This document shows, in pieces, positions 13,607-35,914 of a DNA stretch of 52,371 nt; the stretch's first letter is position 1; each line of letters starts with the position of its first letter. Below the pieces are notes generated by a model that saw only the letters and a program-made list of their open reading frames with translations, ran no database searches and was not told the DNA's origin. This DNA is from Rikenellaceae bacterium. GTDB taxonomy: Bacteria > Bacteroidota > Bacteroidia > Bacteroidales > Rikenellaceae. The stretch lies in the NCBI GenBank assembly GCA_030529085.1, contig JAUMXM010000010.1, positions 1-52,371 on the forward strand, in the 5' to 3' direction. Made by a program: the position numbers and the translations under genes.

Positions 13607-13695
13607 GGGAGTCTGTTTTAAAAATTTATTTTGTTTGGCAAAAATAATAATAATTTATAAAATTACTACTAGTTTTTTATACATTTGACACCCGA

Positions 13696-13862
13696 TTTTT
13701 GTCATTTCACCCCTCCTTGCTGTTTGCGACACCTTGTGTTGGCAGGAATTGTAATTGTTTTGTCAAAAATATAAAGTCTTATCCTCCTTTTATTGCTAAA
13801 TTTGTTAATGCATTGTGCCCGTATAATAATGTACGTGCGTGCGTATGCGTTTTTTGTCATTT
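13696..13862 (+). promoter_or_regulatory. Rhamnose operon control region with repeated TTTTGTCA motif
   Basis: The 12-mer TTTTTGTCATTT occurs twice (13696-13707 and 13851-13862), and the core TTTTGTCA occurs again at 13758-13765. A -7 box TAAATTTG (13797-13804) lies between them, but no TTG is at the -33 distance, as expected for an activator-dependent promoter. The repeats are candidate sites for the divergent AraC-type regulator; one of them lies downstream of the putative transcription start. Confidence 0.45.
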
Positions 13863-13880
13863 ACCGACCTAAATATAATT

Positions 13881-15305
13881 ATGAACAAACAACATTTCGT
13901 GGCGGTCGATCTGGGTGCAACCAGCGGTCGCGTGATCTTGGCTACTCTCGACGACGAGAAGCTCGATTTGGAGGTGCTTCATCGTTTTCCCAACCGCTTG
14001 ATCGAGGTTGGAGGTAAGTATTTTTGGAACATCTTTGCCCTCTATGAGGATATTTTGCAGGGTTTGACCGAGGCCGGCAAGCGTAAGGTCGAGGTGCGCT
14101 CGATCGGTATCGACACCTGGGGTGTCGATTTTGTGGCCGTTGCTGAGGATGGTACGCTCTGCGGTCTGCCGCGTGCCTACCGCGACCCCTACACGAACGG
14201 TATCCCCGAGGAGTACTTCGAGAAGTGCTCGCGCAAGGAGGTCTACGAGCGTACGGGTATCCAGATTATGAACTTCAACTCGCTCTTCCAGCTCTATGCC
14301 CAGCATAAGGAGCAGTCGTCGGCTCTCAAGGCTGCCGATCAGATCCTCTTCATGCCCGACGCCCTGTCCTATCTCTTGACGGGCGAGAAGGTGTGCGAGT
14401 ATACGATTCTCTCGACTTCGCAGTTTATGAATCCCCGCACGAAGCAGGTGGATGAGAAACTCCTGGAGGTAGCCGGCGTGGATAAGGCTCGCTTCCCCGA
14501 GGTGGTGATGCCGGGTCACAAGATCGGCACGCTGACCGAGTCGATTGCCAAGGCTACTGGCTTGGGAGCTGTTCCTGTTGTTGCCGTTGCAGGCCACGAT
14601 ACGGGTTCGGCTGTAGCGGCTGTTCCGGCCGAGGATGAGGGCTTCGCCTACCTCTCGTCGGGCACCTGGTCGCTGATGGGTGTCGAGCTTAAGGAGCCGG
14701 AGATCACCGAGGAGTCCTATGCGATGAACTTCACGAACGAGGGTGGTGTCGATGGTACGACCCGCTTCCTGAAGAACATTACCGGTATGTGGCTCCTGGA
14801 GCAGTGCCGCGCAACGTGGAAGAAGCAGGGTAAGGATTACTCCTATCCCGAGATTATGCAGATGATGAAGACCACCTCGCCTTCGGTCGATCTGCTCGAT
14901 CCCGATGCTGCCGAGTTCGCTGCCCCGACCAATATGCCCGAGGCAATCAAGGCCTACTGCGAGAAGAATGGCAAGGCCGTGCCGCAGGACGATGCACAGA
15001 TGATCCGCTTGATCTTCGATTCGCTGGCTGCCAAGTATGCCGACGTGCTGGGTAAGCTGCAGCAGGTGTCGCCCTTTACGATCAAGACCCTCCACGTAAT
15101 CGGTGGTGGTGCACAGAACGATCTGCTGAACCAGATGACGGCCGATGCGTGCGGTATTCCCGTTGTGGCAGGCCCCTCGGAGGCTACGGCCCTGGGTAAT
15201 GTGATGGTGCAGGCGCGTGCTGCGGGTCTTGTAGGCTCGCTGCAGGAGATGCGCAGCTATATCCGTCGCTCGATCGAGACCAAAACTTTTACCCCGAACA
15301 AATAA
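13881..15305 (+). CDS. rhaB: Rhamnulokinase (FGGY family)
   Basis: 474 residues. It begins with the FGGY phosphate-binding loop (VAVDLGATSGRVILATL) and has the rhamnulokinase-type AGHDTGSAVAAVPA and SSGTWSLMGVE segments and the C-terminal IGGGAQNDLLNQMTADA adenosine motif. It phosphorylates L-rhamnulose to rhamnulose 1-phosphate. The start at 13881 aligns with the family; an in-frame upstream ATG (13839) adds 14 residues that overlap a repeat motif. It is the first gene of the operon, the position of rhaK in B. thetaiotaomicron. Confidence 0.93.
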   Translation: MNKQHFVAVDLGATSGRVILATLDDEKLDLEVLHRFPNRLIEVGGKYFWNIFALYEDILQGLTEAGKRKVEVRSIGIDTWGVDFVAVAEDGTLCGLPRAYRDPYTNGIPEEYFEKCSRKEVYERTGIQIMNFNSLFQLYAQHKEQSSALKAADQILFMPDALSYLLTGEKVCEYTILSTSQFMNPRTKQVDEKLLEVAGVDKARFPEVVMPGHKIGTLTESIAKATGLGAVPVVAVAGHDTGSAVAAVPAEDEGFAYLSSGTWSLMGVELKEPEITEESYAMNFTNEGGVDGTTRFLKNITGMWLLEQCRATWKKQGKDYSYPEIMQMMKTTSPSVDLLDPDAAEFAAPTNMPEAIKAYCEKNGKAVPQDDAQMIRLIFDSLAAKYADVLGKLQQVSPFTIKTLHVIGGGAQNDLLNQMTADACGIPVVAGPSEATALGNVMVQARAAGLVGSLQEMRSYIRRSIETKTFTPNK

Positions 15306-15334
15306 TTTTTAACCAATAACACATAAATTGACCT

Positions 15335-16588
15335 ATGAAAACAGAACTGATTCAAAAGGCTTACGAAGTAGCCAAGGAGCGTTACGCTGCTATCGGCATC
15401 GATACGGATGCTGCACTCGAGAAACTGCAAAAGATTTCGCTGTCGCTGCACTGCTGGCAGGCTGACGACGTGGTTGGCTTTGAGCCGAAGGCCGGCTCGC
15501 TGACGGGCGGTATCCAGGCTACGGGTAACTATCCCGGTCGTGCTCGCAACATCGACGAGCTGCGCCAGGATGTGCTGAAGGCCGCTTCGCTGATCCCCGG
15601 TAAGCACCGCCTGAACCTCCACGAGATCTATGGCGACTTCGGTGATAAGTTTGTTGATCGCAATGAGGTGGAGCCCTGCCACTTCCAGAGCTGGATCGAT
15701 TGGGCGAAGGCCAACGATATGAAGCTCGACTTCAACTCGACGTCGTTCTCGCACCCCAAGTCGGGTGATCTGTCGCTCTCGAACCCCAACCCCGAGATCC
15801 GCAACTTCTGGATCGAGCACACGAAGCGCTGCCGCGCCGTTGCCGAGGCTATGGGTGTTGCTCAGAACGACCCCTGTATCATGAACGTATGGGTACACGA
15901 CGGTTCGAAGGACCTCACGGTAAATCGTATGTACTACCGCGAGCTGCTGAAGGATTCGCTGGATCAGATCTTCGCTACCGAGTATAAGAACATGAAGGAT
16001 TGCATCGAGTCGAAGGTGTTCGGTATCGGTCTGGAGAGCTACACGGTAGGTTCGAACGACTTCTACATCGGCTACGGTGCTTCGCGCGGTAAGATGGTAA
16101 CGCTCGATACGGGCCACTTCCATCCGACGGAGAGCATCGCCGACAAGATTTCGTCGCTGCTGCTCTACACCCCTGAGGTGATGCTGCACGTTTCGCGCCC
16201 CGTACGTTGGGACTCGGACCACGTGACGATTATCAACGACGAGACGCTGGAGCTCTGCAAGGAGATTACGCGTTGCGATGCGCTGGATAAGGTACACATC
16301 GGTCTCGATTACTTCGATGCTTCGATCAACCGCATCGGTGCTTACGTTGTAGGTTCGCGCGCTACGCAGAAGTGTATGTTGCAGGCCCTCTTGGAGCCCA
16401 TCGCAACGCTGCGTGAGTACGAGGCTGCCGGTAAGGGCTTCGAGCGTCTGGCTCTCTTGGAGGAGTGCAAGTCGCTGCCTTGGACCGCTGTTTGGGATAT
16501 GTTCTGCTTGAAGAACGATGTACCCGTAGGTGAGGAGTTTATCGCCGATGTACAGAAGTACGAGCAGGAGGTAACCTCGAAGCGTTAA
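15335..16588 (+). CDS. rhaA: L-rhamnose isomerase
   Basis: 417 residues, the normal length. The sequence is typical: LSLHCWQADDVVGFE near the N-terminus, KLDFNSTSFSHPKSGDLSLSNP, and the metal-site stretch GLDYFDASINRIGAYVVGSRA in the C-terminal third. It converts L-rhamnose to L-rhamnulose. It lies 29 bp after the kinase. In Bacteroides the same gene is called rhaI. Confidence 0.95.
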   Translation: MKTELIQKAYEVAKERYAAIGIDTDAALEKLQKISLSLHCWQADDVVGFEPKAGSLTGGIQATGNYPGRARNIDELRQDVLKAASLIPGKHRLNLHEIYGDFGDKFVDRNEVEPCHFQSWIDWAKANDMKLDFNSTSFSHPKSGDLSLSNPNPEIRNFWIEHTKRCRAVAEAMGVAQNDPCIMNVWVHDGSKDLTVNRMYYRELLKDSLDQIFATEYKNMKDCIESKVFGIGLESYTVGSNDFYIGYGASRGKMVTLDTGHFHPTESIADKISSLLLYTPEVMLHVSRPVRWDSDHVTIINDETLELCKEITRCDALDKVHIGLDYFDASINRIGAYVVGSRATQKCMLQALLEPIATLREYEAAGKGFERLALLEECKSLPWTAVWDMFCLKNDVPVGEEFIADVQKYEQEVTSKR

Positions 16589-16628
16589 TCCCGATTCATT
16601 GCGTTTTTAACCTAAAAGAACAAAGATT

Positions 16629-17783
16629 ATGTATCGTATAGTTTTGAACGAGACCTCTTACTACGGTGCCGGTTGCCGCTCGGTGATTGCCGACGAGGTG
16701 AAGAAGCGTGGTTTTAAGAAGGTGATGCTCATCACGGATAAGGACCTGGTGAAGTTTGGCGTAGCTGCCAAGGTGGAGGAGGTGCTCAAGGGTGCCGACA
16801 TTCCCTACGAGATCTTCTCGGACATCAAGCCCAACCCGACGATTAAGAATGTACTCGACGCGCTGGCCGCATTCCAGGCTTCGGGTGCCGACTGCATCGT
16901 GGCGCTGGGTGGTGGTTCGTCGATCGACACGGCTAAGGCTGTGGGTGTGATCAACAACAACCCCGAGTTTGCCGACGTACGCTCGCTGGAGGGTGTAGCC
17001 CCCACGAAGAATCGCGCCGTTCCCACCTTTGCACTCCCCACGACGGCCGGTACGGCTGCCGAGGTGACGATCAACTACGTGATCACCGACGAGGAGAATA
17101 AGAAGAAGATGGTTTGCGTCGATCCGAACGATATTCCGATGTGCTCGGTTATCGACTGCGAGCTGATGATGTCGATGCCCAAGGGTCTGACGGCCGCTAC
17201 GGGTATGGATGCCCTGACGCACGCTATCGAGAGCTACATCACGCCGGGTGCCTGGACGATGAGCGATATGTTCGAGGAGAAGGCCATCGAGCTGATCCAC
17301 GAGCACCTCTACAACGCTGTTCAGAACGGTCAGGATGTGGTTGCCCGCGAGGGTATGGCCAACGCGCAGTATATCGCCGGTATGGGCTTCTCGAACGTAG
17401 GTCTGGGTATCGTGCACTCGATGGCTCACCCGCTGGGTGCCTTCTACGACACGCCGCACGGTGTGGCTAACGCACTGCTGCTGCCCTACGTGATGGAGTA
17501 CAACGCCGAGTCGCCTGCCAAGCCCAAGTACCTCGGCATTGCCAAGGCGATGGGTGTCGATACGACGGGTATGAGCGTCGAGGAGGGTGTAAAGGCCGCT
17601 ATCGAGGCTGTGAAGGCTCTTTCGGTAAGCATCAACATCCCGCAGCGCCTGTCGGAGATTGGTGTGAAGAAGGAGGATCTGCACGACCTGGCTGTTGCCG
17701 CCTTCAACGATGTCTGCACGGGTGGTAACCCCCGTCCGACGTCGGTCGAGGAGATCGAGGCCATCTATAACATCGCCTACTAA
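16629..17783 (+). CDS. fucO: Lactaldehyde reductase (iron-containing alcohol dehydrogenase)
   Basis: 384 residues. The NAD-binding motif ALGGGSSIDTAKAVG is in the first third, and the Fe-ligand region follows: MDALTHAIESY (Asp, His), GIVHSMAHPLGAFYDTPHGVANALLLP (two His). It reduces L-lactaldehyde, the product of the aldolase, to L-1,2-propanediol and regenerates NAD+ under anaerobic conditions. It corresponds to rhaO of the Bacteroides rhamnose operon and sits between isomerase and symporter. Confidence 0.93.
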   Translation: MYRIVLNETSYYGAGCRSVIADEVKKRGFKKVMLITDKDLVKFGVAAKVEEVLKGADIPYEIFSDIKPNPTIKNVLDALAAFQASGADCIVALGGGSSIDTAKAVGVINNNPEFADVRSLEGVAPTKNRAVPTFALPTTAGTAAEVTINYVITDEENKKKMVCVDPNDIPMCSVIDCELMMSMPKGLTAATGMDALTHAIESYITPGAWTMSDMFEEKAIELIHEHLYNAVQNGQDVVAREGMANAQYIAGMGFSNVGLGIVHSMAHPLGAFYDTPHGVANALLLPYVMEYNAESPAKPKYLGIAKAMGVDTTGMSVEEGVKAAIEAVKALSVSINIPQRLSEIGVKKEDLHDLAVAAFNDVCTGGNPRPTSVEEIEAIYNIAY

Positions 17784-17795
17784 TAGCCCTCTAAG

Positions 17796-18833
17796 ATGGA
17801 GATTCTTATCGGTCTATTGATTATTGCAATCGGCAGCTTCTGCCAGTCGAGCTCGTATGTACCTATTAATAAGGTACGCGCGTGGTCGTGGGAGAGCTTC
17901 TGGTTGACACAGGGTCTCTTCGCTTGGTTGGTGTTCCCCTTCCTGGGAGCACTCCTGGCGGTGCCCGAGGGTCACTCGCTGACCGAGCTGATTACGGGTG
18001 GGGATTCGTTCCGCATCGCGATGACGATTCTCTTCGGTGTATTGTGGGGTGTCGGCGGTCTTACCTTCGGCCTCTCGATGCGCTACCTGGGTGTGGCTCT
18101 TGGTCAGTCGATCTCGCTCGGTACGTGTGCCGGTCTGGGTACGATTATGGGCCCCGTGCTGCTCAACATCTTCTTCCCCGAGCTCAACGCCCTCCAGTCG
18201 CTGACGGCTGCCGTGATTATCGGCGTTGTGGTAACGCTGCTCGGTATCGCCATTATCGGCATTGCCGGTTCGATGAAGGCTGCGTCGCTTTCGGAGGAGG
18301 AGAAACAGGCTGCTGTGAAGGATTTCAACTTCCCGAAGGGTATCCTGATTGCGCTCTTGGCCGGTTTTATGAGCGGCTGCTTCAATGTGGGTTTGGAGTT
18401 CGGCAAGGATATCAACTTCGGTGAGCTGACCGATCCGATGTTCCGCACGCTGCCCGCCACGCTGCTCATCACACTGGGCGGTTTCGTGACGAACGCCTGC
18501 TACTGCTTGTGGCAGAATTGGAAGAATAAGAGCTTCGCCGACTACGGCAAGAAGGAGCTGTGGGCCAACAACGTTTTGTTCTGCGCCCTGGCCGGTGGTC
18601 TGTGGTATTCACAGTTCTTCGGTCTTTCGCTCGGTCGCAGCTTCTTCGAGACGGGTGGCGTGATGGATACGCTTTCGTTCTGCATCCTGATGTCGCTCAA
18701 TGTGACCTTCTCGAATGTGTGGGGTATTATCCTCAAGGAGTGGAAGGGTTGCTCGAAGAAGACGATTGCTGTGCTGCTGGTAGGTATCCTGGTGCTGATT
18801 GCATCGACCTTTATTCCCGAACTATTAAAGTAA
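17796..18833 (+). CDS. rhaT: L-rhamnose/proton symporter RhaT
   Basis: 345 residues with ten predicted membrane helices and RhaT hallmarks: the N-terminal GSFCQSSSYVPINKVRAWSWE, GVLWGVGGLTFGLSMRYLGVALGQSI, and ISLGTCAGLGTIMGP. It imports L-rhamnose across the inner membrane with H+ (or Na+). It starts 12 bp after the reductase gene, so it is tightly co-transcribed. Confidence 0.95.
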   Translation: MEILIGLLIIAIGSFCQSSSYVPINKVRAWSWESFWLTQGLFAWLVFPFLGALLAVPEGHSLTELITGGDSFRIAMTILFGVLWGVGGLTFGLSMRYLGVALGQSISLGTCAGLGTIMGPVLLNIFFPELNALQSLTAAVIIGVVVTLLGIAIIGIAGSMKAASLSEEEKQAAVKDFNFPKGILIALLAGFMSGCFNVGLEFGKDINFGELTDPMFRTLPATLLITLGGFVTNACYCLWQNWKNKSFADYGKKELWANNVLFCALAGGLWYSQFFGLSLGRSFFETGGVMDTLSFCILMSLNVTFSNVWGIILKEWKGCSKKTIAVLLVGILVLIASTFIPELLK

Positions 18834-18851
18834 ACTAAACGTATAAAAAAG

Positions 18852-19655
18852 ATGAAATCTATTTTGGAAAACCGCCCTCAGCTGAAGGCCGAAATCGAGA
18901 AGGTTGCCGAGGTGGCAGGTTATCTCTGGACGAAGGGCTGGGCCGAGCGTAATGGCGGTAACATTACGGTCAATGTAACGGAGTATGTAGACGATGAGAT
19001 TCGTCAGATGCCGGCCATTTCGGAGGCCTATCCCATTGGTACGACCGTTCCGGCACTGAAGGGTTGCTACTTCTACTGCAAGGGCACGAACCGTCGCATG
19101 CGCGATCTGGCTCGCTGGCCGATGGAGAATGGTTCGATTGTCCGCATTCTGGACGACTGCGCTTCGTATGTCATCATCGCCGATAATCCGGTGAAGCCGA
19201 CCTCGGAGATCGCTGCCCACCTCTCGATGCACAACCAGATGGTTGAGAAGGGTAAGGGCTACAAGGCTGCCGTTCATACCCACCCGATCGACCTGGTGGC
19301 AATGACCCACAAGCCCGAGTTCCTCGAGAAGGATGTACTGACGAACCTGCTGTGGAGTATGATTCCCGAGACGCGCGCCTTCTGCCCGAAGGGTCTGGGT
19401 ATCGTTCCCTACAAGATGCCGTCGTCGGTAGAGCTGGCCGATGCTACGATCGAGCAGCTGGAGGAGTACGACGTAGTAATGTGGGAGAAGCACGGTGTAT
19501 GCGCCGTGGGTCCCGATATCATGGAGGCTTTCGACCAGGTTGATGTCCTGTCGAAGGCTGCCCAGATCTACCTCACGGCCAAGTCGATGGGCTTTGAGCC
19601 GACGGGTACGACCCAGGAGCAGATGTTGGAGCTGCAGCGTGCCTTCAACCTCTAA
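18852..19655 (+). CDS. rhaD: Rhamnulose-1-phosphate aldolase
   Basis: 267 residues, a class II zinc aldolase. Zinc ligands are visible in VHTHPIDLVAM (two His) and MWEKHGVCAVG (third His), and GWAERNGGNITVNVTEY near the N-terminus resembles the substrate phosphate loop. It cleaves rhamnulose 1-phosphate to DHAP and L-lactaldehyde. It is the last gene of the operon, followed by a terminator. Confidence 0.94.
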   Translation: MKSILENRPQLKAEIEKVAEVAGYLWTKGWAERNGGNITVNVTEYVDDEIRQMPAISEAYPIGTTVPALKGCYFYCKGTNRRMRDLARWPMENGSIVRILDDCASYVIIADNPVKPTSEIAAHLSMHNQMVEKGKGYKAAVHTHPIDLVAMTHKPEFLEKDVLTNLLWSMIPETRAFCPKGLGIVPYKMPSSVELADATIEQLEEYDVVMWEKHGVCAVGPDIMEAFDQVDVLSKAAQIYLTAKSMGFEPTGTTQEQMLELQRAFNL

Positions 19656-26830: not shown

Positions 26831-26896
26831 TGGATGCAGATTTTACGATTTCTGCGCAAAAGTAATGAAAAAATGACAAAATCAAGCTCTGAGATT

Positions 26897-26926
26897 TTGC
26901 ACTTCGCCATTTTCTGACTATCTTTA
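26897..26926 (+). promoter_or_regulatory. Promoter of the transketolase-kinase-isomerase operon
   Basis: TTG (26897-26899), 19 nt, TATCTTTA (26919-26926), one mismatch from TAnnTTTG, about 40 nt before the first gene. Confidence 0.65.
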
Positions 26927-26964: not shown

Positions 26965-27795
26965 ATGCAAACAAAAGAACTGATGTTGCAGGCCGAGAAG
27001 AACCGCAAGCGTCTGGTCGAGATTGTCCAGATCGCCAAGGCCGGCCATATCGGCGGTGGTCTCTCGTCGATGAACATGCTGACGGCGCTCTATTTTCATG
27101 TGATGAACGTCGATCCGAAGAATCCTAAATGGGAGGAGCGCGACCGCTTCGTGATGAGTAAGGGTCACTGTGTGGAGGCGCTTTACAGCGTTTTGGAGCA
27201 CAAGGGCTTCATTACGAAGGAGCTGACCGACACCTACGGCGAGTTTGATACCCCTCTGGCCGGTCACCCGACGATCGAGGTGGCAGGTATCGAGGTCAAC
27301 AGCGGTGCCCTGGGTCACGGTCTTCCGATTGGTGTGGGTATGGCCATTGCCGCCAAGATGGACAAGAAGGCCTGGCGCACGTATGTCCTGATGGGCGACG
27401 GTGAGCAGGGTGAGGGCTCGATCTACGAGGCCGCCATGGCCGGCAGCCACTACAAGCTCGACAACCTGGTGGCCATCATCGACCGCAACGGTTTGCAGAT
27501 TAGCGATACGACCGAGAATGTGATGGCTCTGGAGTCGATCGAGGCTCGCTGGAGCGCCTTCGGTTGGGATGTGCAGGAGATCAACGGTGACTCGATGGAG
27601 GAGATTGTTGCCGCCTTCGAGAAGATCGACTATAACTGTGGCAAGCCCCACCTGATTGTTTCGCGCACGACGAAGGGTAAGGGTGTTTCGCTGATGGAGA
27701 ACATCCTCAAGTGGCACCACGGTGTTCCGACGGCCGACGAGTATAAGGAGGCCATCGCCGAGATTGATGCGCGCATCGAGTCATTAACGAAATAA
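26965..27795 (+). CDS. Transketolase, N-terminal (TPP-binding) subunit
   Basis: 276 residues corresponding to the pyrophosphate half of a transketolase. It begins with GHIGGGLSSMNMLTALY, continues with FVMSKGHCVEALYSVL, and has the TPP/Mg motif GDGEQGEGSIYEAAMAG followed by IIDRNGLQ. Split transketolases are common in anaerobes and in sugar-specific variants such as AptA of the apulose pathway. It is the first gene of a four-gene operon. With a kinase and isomerase in the operon, a dedicated substrate is more likely than the general pentose phosphate pathway. Confidence 0.9.
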   Translation: MQTKELMLQAEKNRKRLVEIVQIAKAGHIGGGLSSMNMLTALYFHVMNVDPKNPKWEERDRFVMSKGHCVEALYSVLEHKGFITKELTDTYGEFDTPLAGHPTIEVAGIEVNSGALGHGLPIGVGMAIAAKMDKKAWRTYVLMGDGEQGEGSIYEAAMAGSHYKLDNLVAIIDRNGLQISDTTENVMALESIEARWSAFGWDVQEINGDSMEEIVAAFEKIDYNCGKPHLIVSRTTKGKGVSLMENILKWHHGVPTADEYKEAIAEIDARIESLTK

Positions 27796-27809
27796 GGAGT
27801 AAAAAAGCT

Positions 27810-28748
27810 ATGGAGATTAAGAGTGTACCTTGCCGCCAGAGTTTTACCGATACGCTCGTTGAGCTGGCAAAAGAGGATAAGAACATTGTAGCCGTTACGA
27901 CCGATGCCCGTGGCTCGGTGACGCTGACCAAATTTTTCAAGGAGCTGCCCGAGCAGGCCGTTGAGTGCGGTATCGCCGAGCAGGATGCTGTCGGCATCGC
28001 AGCCGGTCTGGCCCAGTCGGGTAAGAACACCTTCGTTTGCGGCCCCGCCTGCTTCTATGTGGCTCGCTCGCTGGAGCAGGTGAAAGTCGATGTGGCCTAC
28101 TCGCAGAACCCCGTCAAGATTTTGGGTGTTTCGGGTGGTGTAGCCTATGGCGCATTGGGTGCCACGCACCACAGCCTGCACGATATTGCAGCCCTGCGCA
28201 CCTTCCCCGGTATGAATGTCTTCCTGCCCTGCGACGCTCGTCAGACGCGCAAGCTGGTGCAGGCGTTGGTGAAGTTCCCCGAGGCTGGCTATGTTCGCGT
28301 GGGTCGCAACGCCGTTCCCGATGTTTATGAGAACGACGACTTCGCGTTCGAAATTGGCAAGGCCAATACGCTGCTCGAGGGTGACGATTTGACGATCATC
28401 GGTTGCGGTGAGACGGTCTACCACTGCTTGGAGGCCGGTAAGAAGCTCCACGCCGAGGGTGTCAAGGCGCGCGTGATCGACATGCACACCCTGAAGCCGA
28501 TCGACAAGGAGGCTATCCTGAAGGCTGCTCGTGAGACGGGTAAGATTCTGACCGTCGAGGAGCACAGCATGTATGGAGGTCTGGGCGGTATCGTGGCCGA
28601 AATTACGGCGCAGGAGTGCCCCGTGAAGATGCGCATCCTGGGTATCCCCGACGAGAATGCCGTGCACGGCAAGCCGCTGGAGATATTCCACCACTACAAG
28701 CTTGATGCCGAGGGCGTTTACGAGACGGCTAAGGAGTTGCTGAAGTAA
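27810..28748 (+). CDS. Transketolase, C-terminal subunit
   Basis: 312 residues: the PYR half with the catalytic Glu motif ECGIAEQDAVGIAAGLA and then the C-terminal transketolase domain (IIGCGETVYHCLEAGKKL, ILTVEEHSMYGGLGG). It starts 14 bp after the N-terminal subunit. The two together form one active transketolase, with TPP bound at the interface. Confidence 0.92.
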   Translation: MEIKSVPCRQSFTDTLVELAKEDKNIVAVTTDARGSVTLTKFFKELPEQAVECGIAEQDAVGIAAGLAQSGKNTFVCGPACFYVARSLEQVKVDVAYSQNPVKILGVSGGVAYGALGATHHSLHDIAALRTFPGMNVFLPCDARQTRKLVQALVKFPEAGYVRVGRNAVPDVYENDDFAFEIGKANTLLEGDDLTIIGCGETVYHCLEAGKKLHAEGVKARVIDMHTLKPIDKEAILKAARETGKILTVEEHSMYGGLGGIVAEITAQECPVKMRILGIPDENAVHGKPLEIFHHYKLDAEGVYETAKELLK

Positions 28749-28773
28749 GTCGAAACCTACTTTAATAAAGTCT

Positions 28774-30261
28774 ATGAATCGTTATATTATAGCTATTGAC
28801 CAGAGTACGTCGGCCACCAAGGCGATCCTCTTCGACGAGAAGTGCCGACTGTTGCACCGCGTCAATATCGAGCATACGCAATACTACCCCCAGGCGGGTT
28901 GGGTCGAGCACGATGCCGAGGAGATCTACGCCAATGCGGTCGAGGCGATCCGTCGCCTGATGGAGGCCTATCCGACCGAAGAGGGTTCGACCTTTTCGCT
29001 CGCCATCACCAACCAGCGCGAGACGGTGGTGGTGTGGGATGCTGCTACGTCGAAGCCCGTGATGCACGCCGTGGTATGGCAGTGCCAGCGCGGTGCCGAG
29101 ATCTGCCGACAGCTCAAGGAGGCGGGCCACGAGCAGACCTTCTTCAAAAAGAGTGGTCTTCTGATCGATCCCTACTTCTCGGCCAGCGGTGCCCGTTGGA
29201 TTTTGGACAACGTGGAGGGTGCCCGCGAGGCTGCCGAGCGCGGCGAGCTGCGTATGGGTACGATGGATGCGTGGCTCATCTGGAAGCTCACCGAGGGCAA
29301 GGTGCACGCTACGGACTATACGAACGCTTCGCGCACGCTGCTCTTCAACATCCACACGCTCGATTGGGATGATGAGCTGCTTTCGCTCTTCGCCATTCCC
29401 CGCTCGATGATGCCCGAGGCGTTGCCTTGCGACGCTGTCTTTGGTCGCACGACCATCGAGGGACTCTTCCCCGAGGGTATCGAGATTGCCGGTGTGCTGG
29501 GCGACTCGCACGGCGCTCTGGCCGGTCAGATGTGCTTCGAGGCGGGTATGGGTAAGGCTACCTATGGCACCGGCTCGTCGGTGATGGTCAATATCGGCGA
29601 GGAGGCTGTTGCCGCCCCCGAGGGGTTGGTTACCTCGGTTGGCTTTGCCGCCTGCGGTAAGACCTTCTACGCCTTCGAGGGTAACATCCACTGCACGGGT
29701 GCTACGCTGCGTTGGCTCACCGATCAGCTGCAACTCATCGGCTCGCCCGCCGAGACCGAGGCCCTCGCTACGAGTGTCGAATCGACGGGTGGTGTCTATC
29801 TGGTGCCCGCCTTTGCAGGCTTGGGTGCACCCTGGTGGAACTCCGAGGCGAAGGCGATCATTGCCGGTATGAGCCTCGCTACGACCAAGGCGCACGTCGT
29901 GCGTGCCGCTCTGGAGGCCATTCCCTACCAGATCAAGGATTTGGTCGATCTGATGACGGGCAAGGCCGGTGTGGCTCTCAAGGAGCTTCGCGTGGATGGT
30001 GGCCCGACCAAGAACCGCTTCCTGATGCAATTCCAGGCCGATATGCTCAATGCTACGATCAACCGCGCCGATATTGAGGAGGCTTCGGCAATGGGTGCTG
30101 TGGTGATGAATGGCTTGGCGCGCAAGGTGTGGGCTACGCTCGATGAGGTGGCTGCGCTGCGCACGTCAGACAACCGCATCGAGCCGCAGATGGCTGCCGA
30201 GGAGCGTGAGAAGCTCTACGGTGGTTGGATCGAGGCTGTGAAATTGGTAAATCGCAAATAA
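28774..30261 (+). CDS. FGGY-family carbohydrate kinase of the glycerol kinase clade
   Basis: 495 residues, GlpK-like over its whole length (IAIDQSTSATKAILFDE, AITNQRETVVVWD, DYTNASRTLLFNI). Against E. coli GlpK the alignment is offset by one residue, and the glycerol contacts Arg82, Glu83, Trp102, Tyr134 and Asp244 are all present. The next residue is different: GlpK has Gln246 (GDQQ) and this protein has Ser245 (GDSH). It lies between a split transketolase and a sugar isomerase, which suggests that it phosphorylates a ketose at its glycerol-like end rather than glycerol. Calling it plain GlpK would be the alternative. Confidence 0.85.
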   Translation: MNRYIIAIDQSTSATKAILFDEKCRLLHRVNIEHTQYYPQAGWVEHDAEEIYANAVEAIRRLMEAYPTEEGSTFSLAITNQRETVVVWDAATSKPVMHAVVWQCQRGAEICRQLKEAGHEQTFFKKSGLLIDPYFSASGARWILDNVEGAREAAERGELRMGTMDAWLIWKLTEGKVHATDYTNASRTLLFNIHTLDWDDELLSLFAIPRSMMPEALPCDAVFGRTTIEGLFPEGIEIAGVLGDSHGALAGQMCFEAGMGKATYGTGSSVMVNIGEEAVAAPEGLVTSVGFAACGKTFYAFEGNIHCTGATLRWLTDQLQLIGSPAETEALATSVESTGGVYLVPAFAGLGAPWWNSEAKAIIAGMSLATTKAHVVRAALEAIPYQIKDLVDLMTGKAGVALKELRVDGGPTKNRFLMQFQADMLNATINRADIEEASAMGAVVMNGLARKVWATLDEVAALRTSDNRIEPQMAAEEREKLYGGWIEAVKLVNRK

Positions 30262-30295
30262 TTTACAAACAATAATAACTAAAACAACTACTACT

Positions 30296-31726
30296 ATGTA
30301 TGTATCTGCAAAAGCCGGTAAGGAGACCTTTGGTCTGATTATTGGTACGCGCGCCTACTTCAACTCGGCGCTGGCCATTGATGTTCGCAAGACCCTCTGC
30401 GAGGAGCTGGAGAAGGCGGGCTACGGCTATGTGATTCTGGATGTTGCCGACACGCTGACCGACGGCGCCATGGAGACCGTGGAGGATGGTCGCAAGTGTG
30501 CCAAGCTCTTCCGCGAGTACCGCGACGTGATCGACGGTATCATCGTGTCGCTGCCCAACTTCGGTTTCGAGGTGGGTATCATCAACGCCATTGCACGCGC
30601 CGAGCTGAATGTACCCGTCCTGGTGCAGGCTTGCGATGATGAGAACGACAAGGTCGATCTCGACAACCGCCGCGATGCCTTCTGTGGTAAGATTTCGGTT
30701 TGCAACAACCTCTACCAGTATGGCATCCCCTTCACCGACACCGAGCTGCACACCTATTCAATCCACTCGGAGTACCTGATGAAGGATATCAACAAGTTCG
30801 CTGCCACCTGCCGCACGGTGAAGGGTCTGACCCACGCCCGTATCGGTCAGATTGGTACGCGCCCCCTGGGCTTCAACACCTGCCGTGTGAGCGAGAAGCT
30901 GCTGCAGGCTACCGGTATCACGGTGGTTCCTGTCGATCTCTCGGAGATCCTCTTCAACGCTCAGCGTTACGACGAGTCGGCTGCCGCCATCAAGACCAAG
31001 ATGGAGGAGATTGCCGCCTATGCCAAGGTGCCCGCTGCTCATAGCGACAAGGTGATCCGCATGGCCAAGTTGAGCTGCGCTGTCGAGGATTGGCTGCAGG
31101 TGAACGAGTGCAACGCTGCCGCTATCCAGTGCTGGGATTCGTTGGAGCAGAACTATGGCTGCGCCGCTTGTACGACGATGAGTATGCTCAGCGACAAGCT
31201 CTTCCCCTGCGCTTGCGAGACCGATATCGCCGGTGCCGTTTCGATGTACGCCCTGACGCTCGCTTCGGGCAAGGCTGCTACGCTGCTTGATTGGAACAAC
31301 AACTTCGCCGAGGATCGCAACAAGTGCGTCTGCACCCACTGCGGTAATGCCCCCAAGAGCTTCGTGCAGAACGAGATTTCGCTCGACACGCTGGGTGTGC
31401 TGGGTCGCACGCTGGGTAAGGTCAATACCTTCGGTGCCGTGCAGGGTAAGTGCACGGAGGGTGAGTTCACCTTCTTCCGCATCTCGACCGACGACACGCT
31501 GGGCTGCATCAAGAGCTACCTGGGTAAGGGCCGCATGACGAACGATCCCTATCCGATGGCGGGTTGTATCGCTGTTACGGAGGTCGACAACCTCCAGCAG
31601 CTCCTGAAGTTCATCTGCAAGAACGGCTTCGAACACCACGTGGCTATGTGCCGCACCGATGTAGTCGATATCCTGACCGACGCTGTAGATAACTATCTGG
31701 GTTGGGATCTCTACCTGCACGAGTAA
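30296..31726 (+). CDS. L-fucose/L-arabinose isomerase-family sugar isomerase
   Basis: 476 residues of the FucI/AraA-like superfamily (COG2407 type). The metal site is recognisable: Glu308 in ACETDIAGA, Asp332 in LLDWNNNF (24 residues on, the same spacing as E. coli FucI Glu337/Asp361), and a C-terminal His pair in GFEHHVAM (about 447-448). A cysteine cluster CVCTHCG is at 344-350. It should convert an aldose to a ketose, which the preceding kinase would phosphorylate. Shorter than FucI (about 590), so the substrate is not assumed to be fucose. Confidence 0.85.
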   Translation: MYVSAKAGKETFGLIIGTRAYFNSALAIDVRKTLCEELEKAGYGYVILDVADTLTDGAMETVEDGRKCAKLFREYRDVIDGIIVSLPNFGFEVGIINAIARAELNVPVLVQACDDENDKVDLDNRRDAFCGKISVCNNLYQYGIPFTDTELHTYSIHSEYLMKDINKFAATCRTVKGLTHARIGQIGTRPLGFNTCRVSEKLLQATGITVVPVDLSEILFNAQRYDESAAAIKTKMEEIAAYAKVPAAHSDKVIRMAKLSCAVEDWLQVNECNAAAIQCWDSLEQNYGCAACTTMSMLSDKLFPCACETDIAGAVSMYALTLASGKAATLLDWNNNFAEDRNKCVCTHCGNAPKSFVQNEISLDTLGVLGRTLGKVNTFGAVQGKCTEGEFTFFRISTDDTLGCIKSYLGKGRMTNDPYPMAGCIAVTEVDNLQQLLKFICKNGFEHHVAMCRTDVVDILTDAVDNYLGWDLYLHE

Positions 31727-31734
31727 AAAATTGC

Positions 31735-31854
31735 GAAAGGATTTAAGCGGGTATTTTCGGCGTTACGCTTCTGGTGCGAAATCGCAGCATACCGAGCGTA
31801 TGTGAGGCTTCCGCACCAAAACCAAGCCTTGAAAAAAGCCCCTTAAATCCTTTC
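31735..31854. repeat. Nested inverted-repeat element after the isomerase gene
   Basis: A 13-bp perfect inverted repeat, GAAAGGATTTAAG (31735-31747) and its complement (31842-31854), encloses about 94 nt with further hairpins: GGTGCG/CGCACC (31773-31778 and 31812-31817) around CATAC/GTATG (31788-31792 and 31798-31802). No protein is supported here. It could be a structured RNA at the operon end or a small palindromic mobile element; no target-site duplication is clear. Confidence 0.6.
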
Positions 31855-31875
31855 TTACATATTTTAATATTGCCT

Positions 31876-32442
31876 ATGAAACTACTCTGGATTTTTTTTG
31901 TGGCTCTGCTGACTTATGTTGGCGCGCAAGCCCAGCAACCCGTCTATGTGTATGGTGTCGATTATGCACAGGTGAAGGTTTTTGGTGCCGATGAGTCTCC
32001 GAACGATTTTGCGAAGGCTTTTGTCGGTATCAACGATCTGCTTTATGGCGAGATCGATAAATACGACTTCAGCGCGGTATTCGGCTCGGGAAATTACGAG
32101 GTCCATCACGAGGTGATGGCGAATCGTATTCTGCAAGCCGATCTCTCCGAGCTGCGAGCTCGCGGCCAAGCACTTCCCATTCTGAACGTGCCGCAAATTC
32201 TGGCTGCGTATGAGCTGCCCCATACCGAGGGCGTCGGCTTTGTATTGATTGCGCGCTTGCTCAATAAGACAAAGAGTCAGGGCTCGTATTATGCGGTGAT
32301 GTTTGATGTGGCTTCGCGTCGCGTCCTGCTGCAAACGGAGATTACGACCCGAAGTCGTGGCTTTGGTTTGCGTAATTATTGGGCCTATACCGTCTATAAC
32401 GCAATCAAGCAGTTGCGTATGGAGGTACCTGCCAACAAGTAA
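31876..32442 (+). CDS. Secreted protein of unknown function
   Basis: 188 residues with a Sec signal peptide (MKLLWIFFVALLTYVGAQAQ). The mature part is about 168 residues with an alternating pattern suggestive of alpha/beta structure (VYVYGVDYAQVKVFGADE, ILNVPQILAAYELPHTEGVGFVLIARLL, YYAVMFDVASRRVLLQTE). I do not recognise the family. An in-frame ATG at 31774 lies inside the hairpin element and lacks support. It precedes the GH43-like lipoprotein by 21 bp and may be co-transcribed with it. Confidence 0.7.
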   Translation: MKLLWIFFVALLTYVGAQAQQPVYVYGVDYAQVKVFGADESPNDFAKAFVGINDLLYGEIDKYDFSAVFGSGNYEVHHEVMANRILQADLSELRARGQALPILNVPQILAAYELPHTEGVGFVLIARLLNKTKSQGSYYAVMFDVASRRVLLQTEITTRSRGFGLRNYWAYTVYNAIKQLRMEVPANK

Positions 32443-32463
32443 CAAATGCTAACACAAATTTCT

Positions 32464-33483
32464 ATGAAACTGAAAACTTTGATTTTGGGTCTGGTGCTAG
32501 CTGCGATGGCTGCCTGCACGGCTCCCGTCGAGAACGAGCGTGAGGTCTATATCTTCACGGGCCACCGTGAGCCCGCCTTGGATGGTCTTCATCTGCTCTA
32601 CAGCTACGACGGCTACCATTGGGACAGCCTCCAGGGTTCGTGGCTCGTGCCGATGATCGGCAACAAGGCTCCCGAGTACTTCAACTACCACTCGAACAAG
32701 ATGGAGCAGGGTAAGTATGTTCCCAACTCGATGATGCGCGACCCCTCGATTGTGCAGGGTCCCGATGGTACGTTCCACCTGGTCTGGACACTTGCCTGGT
32801 CGGGTGAGCTGGGCTTCGGTTACGCCTCGTCGAAGGATCTCATTAATTGGAGCGAGCAGCGCATTATCCCCGTGATGGAGGGTGAGAAGACCAACAACGT
32901 ATGGGCTCCCGAGATCTTCTACGATGATGTAAAAGCGCAGTATATAATCGTTTGGTCCTCGTCGATTTTGCCCGAGAACTACACCGAGGCCGACAAACTC
33001 GGTCAGAACGGTTGCCACCGTGCCTACTACACCACGACGAAGGATTTCGTGGAGTTTGCCCCCAAGAAGCCCTTCTACGATCCGGGCTTCAACTCGATCG
33101 ACGGCTTTGTCGTCAAGAAGGGCGAGGGTGACTACCGCCTTATCATCAAGGATAACCGCAAGCCGGGCTACAGCGACCTCTTCTGTGTCGAGGCTACGGA
33201 TGCCGAGGGCCCCTATACGAATCCGACCGAGAAGTTTGCTCCGACCTATTCCGAGGGTGCTTGCGCTATCCAGGTAGGCGAGGAGTGGCTCATCTACTTC
33301 GATGTCTATCGTGAGTACCGCTTCGGTGCTGTCAAGACGACCGATTTTAAGACCTTCACGCCGATCGACGACCAGATTTCGCTCCCCGTAGGCCACAAGC
33401 ACGGCACGATTATCAAGGTCAAGGAGTCGATCTTGGAGGCTCTGCTGGCCGAGGAGGCGAATCGTTATGGAGTAGAACAATAA
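32464..33483 (+). CDS. GH43-like glycosidase lipoprotein
   Basis: 339 residues. The lipoprotein signal has the lipobox AMAAC (Cys18), so it is membrane-anchored. The rest is a five-bladed propeller of the GH43 clan. Candidate active-site acids are Asp93 (MMRDPSI, base), Asp213 (NSIDGFVV, pKa modulator) and Glu264 (YSEGACAI, acid), with NVWAPEIFY at the expected place. Family members remove arabinose, xylose or galactose residues. It is followed 10 bp on by a GH2 enzyme. Start 32464 was chosen for the signal peptide. Confidence 0.8.
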   Translation: MKLKTLILGLVLAAMAACTAPVENEREVYIFTGHREPALDGLHLLYSYDGYHWDSLQGSWLVPMIGNKAPEYFNYHSNKMEQGKYVPNSMMRDPSIVQGPDGTFHLVWTLAWSGELGFGYASSKDLINWSEQRIIPVMEGEKTNNVWAPEIFYDDVKAQYIIVWSSSILPENYTEADKLGQNGCHRAYYTTTKDFVEFAPKKPFYDPGFNSIDGFVVKKGEGDYRLIIKDNRKPGYSDLFCVEATDAEGPYTNPTEKFAPTYSEGACAIQVGEEWLIYFDVYREYRFGAVKTTDFKTFTPIDDQISLPVGHKHGTIIKVKESILEALLAEEANRYGVEQ

Positions 33484-33493
33484 CGGATCGACT

Positions 33494-35914
33494 ATGAAAC
33501 GATTTCTCTTAACAGCGTGCGCCTCTATGGCCACGCTGTTGCTTTTTGCACAGACCCCTCGCACCGAGCAACTCATCGTTGATTGGGAGTTTCGCCGCGA
33601 CCACGCAGCCGAAGCTACTGAGGGTTGGCAGCGTGTCACCGTGCCCCACGATTGGGCAATCTATGGCCCCTTCTCGCGCGAAAACGACCTCCAAACGGTT
33701 GCTGTGGTGCAGAATGGCGAAACGGTCGCTACTGAAAAGACGGGGCGCACGGGCGGCCTTCCCTATGTGGGCAAGGGGTGCTACCGCACCACCGTTGCGG
33801 TCGATAAGAAGTCCGATGCCCGCTACCGACTCCTCTTCGACGGTGCGATGAGTGAGGCGCAGATTTTTGTCAATGGCCAACAGGTCTGCTTCTGGCCCTA
33901 TGGCTACAACTCCTTCTCGTGCGATGTAACCGAGTCGCTCCGCGCGGGCGAGAACGAGGTGGTTGTTCTGCTCGAAAACCGCCCCCAATCCTCGCGTTGG
34001 TACCCGGGTGCAGGTCTCTACCGCAAGGTGCGCCTGCTGACCCTGCCTGCGGTCCATGTGCCAGTGTGGGGTACGCAGATTACGACCCCCTATGTGGGCG
34101 AAGACTATGCCTCGGTGACCCTCAAGACCGAGATCGAGGGGCTGGCCGAGAAGAGCGCCATTACCCTCCGTACGGTGATCCGCAATGCCGAGGGGCGCAA
34201 GGTGGCCGTAAAGTGTGATACGCGCAAACTCTACTACGGCATGCCCTTCGAGCAGCACCTCACGATCGATCGCCCGGCTCTTTGGTCACCCGAGGAGCCA
34301 AACCTCTACACCGCAACGACGACCCTCATTTCCGAGGGTGTGGAGGTCGATCACTACACAACCCGCTTTGGTGTGCGCACCATCGAGTTGCGCGCCGACA
34401 AGGGCTTCTTCCTCAATGGCAAGCTGCGCAATATCAAGGGCGTCTGCCTCCACCACGACCTCGGCCCTCTGGGTGCGGCGGTTAATAAGGCGGCGATTCG
34501 TCGTCAGCTCACGTTGCTCAAGGAGATGGGTTGCGATGCCATCCGCACGGCCCACAATATGCCTGCCGAAGAGCTGGTCGAGTTGTGCGACGAGATGGGC
34601 TTTATGATGCAGCTCGAGCCCTTCGACGAGTGGGATGTGGCCAAGTGTGAGAATGGCTACCACCGCTATTTCGAGGAGTGGGCCGAGAAGGATATGGTCA
34701 ATATGTTGCGCCACTACCGCAACAACGCCTCGGTGGTGATGTGGTCGGTGGGCAACGAGGTGCCGACCCAATGGAAGGAGAGCGGCTATCGTGTGGCGCG
34801 CTGGCTGCAGGATATCTGCCACCGCGAGGATCCCACCCGCCCCGTAACCTGCGGTATGGATCAGTTTCCGACCGTCTTGGAGAATGGCTTCGCGGCGCAG
34901 TTCGATATTGCGGGCTTCAACTACCGTGTCCACTTCTACGAGCAGGGCTATAAGACGCTGCCTCAAAATCTGATTCTCGGTTCTGAAACCACCTCCACGG
35001 TCAGCTCGCGCGGTGTCTATCACTTCCCCGCCGAGCCGCTGAAGGGGGCGATTCACCCCGACCACCACTCCACGTCCTACGATTTGGAGTGCTGCTGGTG
35101 GTCGAATCTGCCCGACGAGGATTTTGCGGCCAACGAGGACTATCCCTGGCTTATCGGCCAGTTTGTCTGGACGGGCTTCGACTACCTGGGTGAGCCTTCG
35201 CCCTACGATACGGATGCCTGGCCCAACCACTCCTCGATGTTCGGCATCATCGACCTGGCCTCGATTCCCAAGGATCGCTATTGGCTCTATCGCTCGATAT
35301 GGAACACCGAGGCTGAGACGCTGCACATCCTGCCGCATTGGAATTGGTTGGGGCGCGAGGGTGAGATAACACCCATCTTTGTCTATACGTCGTATCCCGA
35401 AGCCGAGCTGTTTATTAATGGTAAGAGCCAGGGTCGTCGCGCCAAGAGCAAGGCGAGCAACATCGAACGCTACCGCTTGATGTGGAACGAGGTGCGCTAT
35501 GAGCCGGGCGAGGTGCGCGTAGTGGCCTACGACAAGGAGGGTAAGGTGGCTGCCGAGAAGCGTATGGTGACGGCCGGCAAGGGGTATCAGCTCCGCATCG
35601 AAGCCGACCGCACGCTGTTGGATGCCTCGGGTGAGGATTTGGCCTACCTCACGGTGAGCGTGGTGGATCGAGCCGGCAATCCCGTGCCGACCGAGAGCCG
35701 CGAGGTGAGGGTCGAGGTCGAGGGGGCAGGTGCGTTCCGCGCCATGGCCAACGGCGACCCCACGTCGCTCGAACTCTTCCACGAAAATGCGATGCACCTC
35801 TTTAGCGGCAAGCTCACAGCCATCGTTCAGAGCGCCGACGAGGCGGGCGAAATCACTGTCACGGTACGTGCCAAGGGGTTGAAACCTGCCACGCTGACCT
35901 TGCAGACAAAATAA
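33494..35914 (+). CDS. GH2 glycosidase (beta-galactosidase type)
   Basis: 806 residues with a signal peptide (cut near residue 20). Domain order: GH2 sugar-binding (WQRVTVPHDWAIYGPF, SSRWYPGAGLYR), immunoglobulin-like domain, catalytic TIM barrel with acid/base Glu422 (WSVGNEVP) and nucleophile Glu498 (ILGSETTS), then DUF4982-like (YPEAELFINGKSQGR) and a C-terminal Ig-like domain. Beta-galactosidase is the default activity; beta-glucuronidase or arabinosidase activity cannot be excluded. With the preceding GH43-like protein it could trim plant polysaccharide side chains. Confidence 0.9.
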   Translation: MKRFLLTACASMATLLLFAQTPRTEQLIVDWEFRRDHAAEATEGWQRVTVPHDWAIYGPFSRENDLQTVAVVQNGETVATEKTGRTGGLPYVGKGCYRTTVAVDKKSDARYRLLFDGAMSEAQIFVNGQQVCFWPYGYNSFSCDVTESLRAGENEVVVLLENRPQSSRWYPGAGLYRKVRLLTLPAVHVPVWGTQITTPYVGEDYASVTLKTEIEGLAEKSAITLRTVIRNAEGRKVAVKCDTRKLYYGMPFEQHLTIDRPALWSPEEPNLYTATTTLISEGVEVDHYTTRFGVRTIELRADKGFFLNGKLRNIKGVCLHHDLGPLGAAVNKAAIRRQLTLLKEMGCDAIRTAHNMPAEELVELCDEMGFMMQLEPFDEWDVAKCENGYHRYFEEWAEKDMVNMLRHYRNNASVVMWSVGNEVPTQWKESGYRVARWLQDICHREDPTRPVTCGMDQFPTVLENGFAAQFDIAGFNYRVHFYEQGYKTLPQNLILGSETTSTVSSRGVYHFPAEPLKGAIHPDHHSTSYDLECCWWSNLPDEDFAANEDYPWLIGQFVWTGFDYLGEPSPYDTDAWPNHSSMFGIIDLASIPKDRYWLYRSIWNTEAETLHILPHWNWLGREGEITPIFVYTSYPEAELFINGKSQGRRAKSKASNIERYRLMWNEVRYEPGEVRVVAYDKEGKVAAEKRMVTAGKGYQLRIEADRTLLDASGEDLAYLTVSVVDRAGNPVPTESREVRVEVEGAGAFRAMANGDPTSLELFHENAMHLFSGKLTAIVQSADEAGEITVTVRAKGLKPATLTLQTK

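Follow-up and report, generated by a model that had tools for sequence, protein, structure and literature searches.

The window considered here is a stretch of 52,371 nucleotides of DNA from a Rikenellaceae bacterium (GenBank assembly GCA_030529085.1, contig JAUMXM010000010.1, positions 1 to 52,371 of the forward strand), the source genome of which (G000) spans 1.9 Mb in 74 contigs and is 85.3% complete. The subject of the present analysis is a four-gene cassette within this window, encoding a transketolase divided into two subunits, a sugar kinase and an aldose isomerase, together with the promoter-like sequence that precedes it:

26896-26926, + strand: promoter-like sequence of the Bacteroidetes type, TTTG-N19-TATCTTTA, ending 38 nucleotides (nt) before the first start codon
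26965-27795, + strand: TktA, an AptA-like, thiamine diphosphate (ThDP)-binding transketolase subunit A of 276 residues (open reading frame and Pfam Transketolase_N)
27810-28748, + strand: TktB, an AptB-like transketolase subunit B of 312 residues (Pfam Transket_pyr and Transketolase_C)
28774-30261, + strand: FGGY ketose kinase of the GlpK/AplK group, probably an apulose kinase, of 495 residues (FGGY_N and FGGY_C)
30296-31726, + strand: aldose isomerase of the FucI/AraA superfamily, probably a D-apiose isomerase, of 476 residues (Fucose_iso_C)

The tight spacing described in an initial sequence-only reading of this DNA was confirmed by the coordinates, with 14, 25 and 34 nt separating tktA, tktB, the kinase gene and the isomerase gene, in that order. 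For the single promoter proposed by the same reading, a candidate site was identified. When the window was scanned with the consensus of Bacteroidetes promoters, TTTG-N18-21-TANNTTT[AG], two matches were obtained on the + strand, one of which is the site at 26896-26926, and four on the - strand, while a sigma-70 scan of the window revealed no excess of sites over shuffled sequences (5 vs 4.9). FucI (C8), AraA with an adjoining FGGY kinase (C37) and a full-length transketolase (C17) are all encoded by separate genes elsewhere in the genome, and the cassette is therefore not part of the basic machinery for pentose or fucose utilization. Readings in which the cassette serves L-arabinose or L-fucose were set aside for the same reason, and the earlier remark that L-arabinose alone would also call for a ribulose-phosphate epimerase, absent here, proved sound, AraA and an FGGY kinase being found together at the other site.

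Characterization of the two transketolase genes bore out the proposed division of the enzyme, as Pfam domains and catalytic motifs are distributed over separate subunits: the ThDP motif GDG..N lies in subunit A and the GIAE motif in subunit B, and to both we ascribe, by assumption, the roles that they have in transketolases. With one motif in each subunit, the two parts needed for a functional transketolase are accounted for, and split architecture and motifs together agree with a two-subunit enzyme of the AptA/AptB kind. Comparison with AptA and AptB of Escherichia coli SE15, which the sequence-only reading had recommended, yielded identities of 41% for TktA and 35% for TktB. Higher values were obtained with the corresponding cassette subunits of Listeria and Monoglobus (51% and 47%, respectively, for TktA, and 48% with both for TktB).

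A two-subunit transketolase encoded in one cluster with an isomerase and a kinase is also a feature of the non-oxidative D-apiose pathway, with which the cassette shares all four enzyme families. Carter and colleagues are said to have laid out this pathway in 2018, in a reaction scheme comprising the isomerase ApsI, the kinase AplK and the transketolase AptA/AptB. Apiose degradation has been shown for Bacteroides and Clostridia, according to the accessible part of a later report (PMC13001218, citing Carter et al., 2018). That part of the report also describes the E. coli SE15 apiose cluster (aplK, ECSF_RS02700; aptA, 02710; aptB, 02715), the growth of three other E. coli strains carrying the cluster on D-apiose as sole carbon source, and the presence in the Pectobacterium cluster of an isomerase gene, apsI, that is absent from E. 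coli (PMC13001218). Homologues of AptA, AptB and AplK are thus common to the window and the E. coli cluster (SE15, ST131/ST14), the AplK of SE15 being 41% identical to the window kinase, whereas two genes for short-chain dehydrogenases/reductases (SDRs) are described in E. coli where the window has an isomerase (PMC13001218). A related arrangement was observed on a plasmid of Sinorhizobium meliloti Rm41 (L095:1424-11139), where a split transketolase, an FGGY kinase, SDRs and a sugar ABC transporter are encoded and no isomerase is found in the stretch shown; this cluster possibly uses the same oxidoreductase detour as that of E. coli.

A search of plasmid sequences with the window isomerase returned 14 records, among them Rahnella, Sodalis and Klebsiella proteins that are 44% identical over 98% of the length. 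In each of these three genera the gene lies in a cluster (L085, L086, L087) composed of an ABC transporter, a regulator, AptA, AptB, the isomerase and AplK, and the AptA, AptB and AplK proteins are 78-79%, 73-77% and 70-72% identical, respectively, to those of E. coli SE15. Its position between aptB and aplK suggests that the enterobacterial isomerase gene is apsI, and hence that the isomerase of the known pathway belongs to the fucose-isomerase superfamily. Judged by sequence, a FucI-type isomerase is common to the enterobacterial and Bacteroidal clusters of the apiose type. The sequence-only reading had offered a route for D-apiose or another pentose, with an isomerase from the fucose/arabinose superfamily as its distinguishing feature; D-apiose is the best-supported of these substrates, and the supposed novelty of the isomerase has not survived the comparison. 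Besides the isomerase, the kinase (41-42%), TktA (41-44%) and TktB (32-35%) also share sequence identity with their enterobacterial counterparts. Several differences from the enterobacterial clusters are nonetheless apparent. Firstly, gene order is tktA-tktB-kinase-isomerase in the window and aptA-aptB-isomerase-kinase in the enterobacteria. Secondly, no ABC transporter lies beside the window cassette, its relatives carrying SusCD, permeases or symporters instead. Finally, the window kinase stands closer to GlpK.

Clusters of the same composition, with an isomerase, two transketolase subunits and a kinase, were also found among firmicutes, in Monoglobus, together with a DUF5060 protein, and in Listeria, together with a DUF4038 protein encoded after a phosphotransferase system gene. 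Both proteins are relatives of apiosidase-like proteins: the Monoglobus protein is 45% identical to PDB entry 4n0r, and its Listeria counterpart is 24% identical to the glycoside hydrolase family 140 (GH140) protein of the window genome.

With respect to the active site of the isomerase, the Glu/Asp metal pair with FucI spacing noted at the outset was recovered: E308 and D332 occupy the alignment positions of the Glu and Asp in the FucI encoded by the same genome, the two residues lie 24 positions apart in both proteins, and H447/H448 come after them. The agreement with FucI is confined in Pfam to the C-terminal domain model, Fucose_iso_C, and the FucI of the genome is a separate protein of 590 residues. 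No solved structure was matched by sequence, whether the isomerase was used as a single sequence or as a profile; a structure model has a mean predicted local distance difference test score of 79.6 and a predicted template-modelling score of 0.85. In NCBIfam the isomerase matches SftI (NF048012) alone, which raises the question of a sulfoquinovose route in which an SftI-like isomerase would cooperate with a split transketolase, as in sulfo-transketolase pathways. Such a route is scarcely credible, given that the match reaches 121.5 bits where 700 are required and that the isomerases of the Rahnella and Sodalis apiose clusters, for which SftI is also the only NCBIfam match, score alike (117 and 119 bits). 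Sulfo-transketolase routes, moreover, are not known to include a sugar kinase, and among the scanned neighbours of the cassette in relatives, pectin-type genes were present and no sulfonate genes were recognised.

The gene-neighbourhood comparison in relatives that had been suggested was carried out on contigs retrieved with the isomerase as seed: from 277 relatives, 80 loci with isomerases of 70-92% identity were kept and analysed with our own open reading frame calls, nearly all bearing Bacteroidales titles, the exceptions including one Bacillota record and two given simply as 'uncultured bacterium'. In 56 of the 80, tktA, tktB, the kinase gene and the isomerase gene are contiguous, on one strand, in the same order and with gaps below 400 nt, a degree of conservation which indicates that the arrangement is not due to chance. 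Six further loci retain all four genes in rearranged form, four with an inverted kinase (two of these also with an insertion) and two with an insertion before the isomerase.

A connection with release of apiose was sought in the distribution of GH140 apiosidases. One Bacteroides locus (L052) holds, in a single row, the cassette, a permease, a binding protein, SusC-like and SusD genes, a GH43 gene and a full-length GH140 gene (375 bits, PF13204), and in Phocaeicola vulgatus ATCC 8482 (L045, 72-73% identical) an apiosidase-like protein (PDB 4n0r) is encoded upstream of the cassette. Co-occurrence was assessed in 392 Bacteroidales genomes, a sample that contains an earlier run of 198 and from which the window genome itself was left out for the test. 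Strong GH140 matches were present in 7/15 isomerase-positive and 16/376 isomerase-negative genomes (Fisher p 4.5e-6), the genomes being non-independent and the seven double-positive ones spread over four families. The window genome has a full-length GH140 of its own (719 bits to 3kzs/5msy), located on a different contig from the cassette. This GH140 gene adjoins a homologue of 6goc (800 bits) and two GH78-type rhamnosidase genes, one with a BNR_2 domain. The protein in 6goc is BT1017, a methylesterase acting on the pectic polysaccharide rhamnogalacturonan II (RG-II), and in Bacteroides thetaiotaomicron BT1012 (an apiosidase) and BT1021 (an arabinofuranosidase) cut apiose and arabinofuranose off the same galacturonic acid, as described in the accessible part of PMC7939467. 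The window genome thus shares with the RG-II system a BT1017 homologue placed by a GH140 homologue with two rhamnosidase genes; the difference is that this locus is on another contig, and that the cassette would act after the sugar has been released. The adjoining GH140 and BT1017 homologues, together with the shared substrate of BT1012 and BT1021, make RG-II the likely source.

Taken together, the homology of the four enzymes, the order of their genes, the residues kept in the active sites, and the linkage and co-occurrence with apiosidase genes lead us to regard it as probable that the cassette encodes the non-oxidative D-apiose pathway. Which substrates are used, which reactions are catalysed and that RG-II supplies the sugar, we infer from these observations. 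Apiose, probably derived mainly from the RG-II of pectin, would be freed by a GH140 apiosidase whose gene lies on another contig; the isomerase would convert D-apiose to apulose, and the FGGY kinase would phosphorylate apulose to apulose 4-phosphate. The two-subunit transketolase would then transfer a two-carbon unit of apulose 4-phosphate to glyceraldehyde 3-phosphate, yielding dihydroxyacetone phosphate and xylulose 5-phosphate, both of which would feed central metabolism. The pathway itself is already known, and the window cassette would be a further member that extends it, not a new route.

Several observations weigh against this interpretation, and a first group of them concerns the kinase. 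Its score on the glycerol-kinase equivalog model TIGR01311 is 597.6 bits, narrowly passing the cut-off of 590.35, whereas the AplKs of E. coli and Rahnella fall below it (495 and 476). The kinase is 44-47% identical to three GlpKs, compared with 41-42% to AplK, and in 45 alignment columns that separate these GlpKs from four AplKs it is GlpK-like in 19, AplK-like in 11 and neither in 15. Such figures could be accommodated if the kinase were the cell's glycerol kinase, present in the operon by accident, particularly as no further GlpK was found in the 85%-complete genome, where the other three FGGY matches share only 24-29% identity with the GlpK of E. coli. This explanation is nevertheless highly improbable in view of the substrate pocket. 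Taking as glycerol-binding, by assumption, a list of GlpK residues and their roles, we found R, E, W, Y and D kept and Q lost, which for that list bears out the claim of five retained contacts out of six; F, which would make a seventh, is missing too. Both changes are to serine (Q247 to S245 and F271 to S269, numbered from Met), and the Gln/Phe pair of GlpK is accordingly absent from the window kinase. The same two serines occur in 69/69 aligned cassette kinases (window included), in four AplKs and in the kinases of Monoglobus, Listeria and S. meliloti. The window kinase keeps the pocket Tyr, at which position 28 of the 69 have Asn. In a kinase tree with long branches, for which GlpK was chosen as the root, the three GlpKs are split from 22 other kinases with 100/99 support. 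The position between transketolase and isomerase, kept in the 56 contiguous loci, also speaks against an accident. Finally, GlpK models are the best matches for the AplKs of E. coli and Rahnella, and for the Monoglobus and Listeria kinases, as well as for the window kinase; since AplK itself is best matched by these models, the GlpK likeness of the window kinase is no argument against apulose. It is probable, from these sequence relationships, that the window kinase is a GlpK relative recruited for apulose, in which case naming based on GlpK would mislabel cassette kinases as glycerol kinases.

The remaining adverse observations concern distribution and linkage. At least one of the four cassette genes is missing from 18 of the 80 loci. 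Searches with tblastn revealed that six of these loci are truncated by contig ends (L019, L039, L042, L043, L073, L077), that in three, kinase and isomerase are present but the roughly 8 kb upstream contain no transketolase (L054, L059, L064), and that in nine the isomerase has no adjoining kinase (L028, L034, L047, L058, L062, L065, L067, L074, L078). Twelve loci therefore lack a kinase or transketolase despite room for it, and the cassette must be considered common, not universal. Its neighbours also vary between genera. An apiosidase-type gene was found near the cassette in only 2/80 loci (five seed proteins, by open reading frame search repeated with tblastn), none lies beside the window cassette, and 8/16 isomerase-positive genomes, the window genome included, have no strong GH140. 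In addition, the backbone of the transketolase tree leaves undecided both the nearest relative of the Bacteroidal subunits, whether AptAB or other, and their substrate.

Some of these points would also fit with the same chemistry, by isomerase, kinase and transketolase split, on another pentose or tetrose, for which D-arabinose, L-lyxose and some less common sugar of plants are examples. Sugar specificity is not fixed by homology, and the window isomerase, 44% identical to the enterobacterial enzymes, is only 28-30% identical to those of the Listeria and Monoglobus cassettes; the nearness of the kinase to GlpK, the isomerase-positive genomes devoid of strong GH140 and the nine loci with no adjoining kinase point in the same direction. 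We consider a different sugar unlikely, however, as the enzyme families are identical to those of clusters tied to growth on apiose, apiosidase genes are associated with the cassette by linkage and co-occurrence, FucI and AraA are present elsewhere in the genome, and a plain pentulose phosphate would presumably need no dedicated transketolase beside the full-length one. D-apiose thus remains the preferred substrate.

Variation among the isomerases themselves was also observed. Those of the nine loci with no kinase beside them show 71-76% identity to the window isomerase. One genome (G284) has four isomerase copies, three 57-61% and one 37% identical to that of the window, and a 36-37% type is present in two other genomes as well (G007, G018); this type may have another substrate.

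Directly 3' of the cassette, the window continues with the following features:

31727-31875, + strand: structured gap of 149 nt separating the cassette from the glycosidase genes (-48.8 kcal/mol, z -4.84)
31876-32442, + strand: probably secreted protein of unassigned family, its start moved from GTG at 31774 to an ATG ahead of an apparent signal peptide
32446-33483, + strand: GH43/BT_3657-like protein, possibly the arabinofuranosidase for chain F of RG-II
33494-35914, + strand: GH2 protein, GalB-like (Pfam/NCBIfam)

The gap contains a long closing stem, has no Rfam match and may split two transcription units. The protein encoded after it has no Pfam or NCBIfam match. The GH43 protein scores 29.0 bits on the Pfam GH43 model, below the cut-off of 32.2, and 28.8 on BT_3657-like_N, above the cut-off of 27; no solved structure was matched by its sequence. 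GH43 proteins of the window type occur in 7/15 isomerase-positive and 25/376 other genomes, and in 17/23 GH140-positive genomes, for which reason their association with the isomerase may be an indirect one, by way of GH140. They adjoin GH140 by coordinates in four genomes (G057, G193, G328, G336) and are fused to it in a fifth (G200, in an open reading frame of 755 residues). The window GH43 is a candidate for the role of BT1021. The GH2 gene is labelled in four of the six closest loci (L002-L007), and nothing was found that links the window GH2 to apiose. The suggestion that the glycosidases following the cassette release its sugar is consequently sustained in part: it gains from the GH43 type standing beside or fused to GH140 elsewhere, and loses from the location of the genome's own GH140 on another contig and the lack of any tie between GH2 and apiose. 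Elsewhere in the window, a likely L-rhamnose operon at 12707-19655 encodes an FGGY kinase, RhaA (593 bits) and a class II aldolase, as identified by Pfam, and an AraC-type regulator, an iron-containing alcohol dehydrogenase and a RhaT-like permease, as read from the translations; its presence fits with pectin use.

In Prevotella, the surroundings of the cassette include genes of a different kind. In 8/80 loci (L037:11444-17468, L040, L041, L047, L055, L059, L069, L079) a gene for an aldolase of the dihydrodipicolinate synthase family lies directly 3' of the isomerase gene, and these loci also hold a sodium symporter (8/8), a PdxA-type dehydrogenase and a DUF1537 kinase (7/8), and an iron-containing alcohol dehydrogenase (5/8). 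It is conceivable, if rather doubtful, that the apiose cassette of rumen-type Prevotella belongs to a wider set of genes for sugars that are nearly exclusive to RG-II, including Dha (3-deoxy-D-lyxo-heptulosaric acid), which would be degraded via D-threonate, the stereochemistry of this reading having been worked out by hand. To our knowledge no route for Dha has been described, and a narrow literature search found no paper on a heptulosaric acid/threonate route. PMC7939467 lists Dha among the sugars of RG-II. Counting against the proposal are the restriction of the alcohol dehydrogenase gene to five of the eight loci and the D-threonate models, which score below their cut-offs (dehydrogenase, 339 vs 583; kinase, 97 vs 450).

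A second, acid-sugar-like module, comprising a member of the Asp/Glu racemase family, a major facilitator superfamily transporter, a DUF1537 kinase and BKACE (Pfam, L079 copies), lies between kinase and isomerase in L079 (5935-9983) and also in L040 and L044, where the kinase and three module genes are inverted relative to L079. The kinase is on the - strand in L037, L040, L041 and L044, and phase variation of the Prevotella kinase was entertained and judged weak. L037, L040 and L041 have only one short self-overlapping palindrome each, and one 24-nt pair in L079 encloses the isomerase, not the kinase. Among the matches listed for L044 (five of nine pairs), two AT-rich inverted repeat pairs, one of 39 nt with 82% complementarity and one of 36 nt with 86%, do border the segment running from tktB to the kinase. 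Metabolic genes make up the insertion shared by L040, L044 and L079, in which, as scanned in L079, no recombinase is encoded. The idea is a weak one, though somewhat less improbable for L044.

The cassette first put forward as a candidate new pathway is thus resolved as a known one, extended by homology to relatives in Alistipes, Phocaeicola and Prevotella and tied to enzymes that degrade RG-II. If its use for apiose is confirmed, the cassette would offer an easy way of recognizing, from their genomes, those gut and rumen bacteria that live on D-apiose from pectin.

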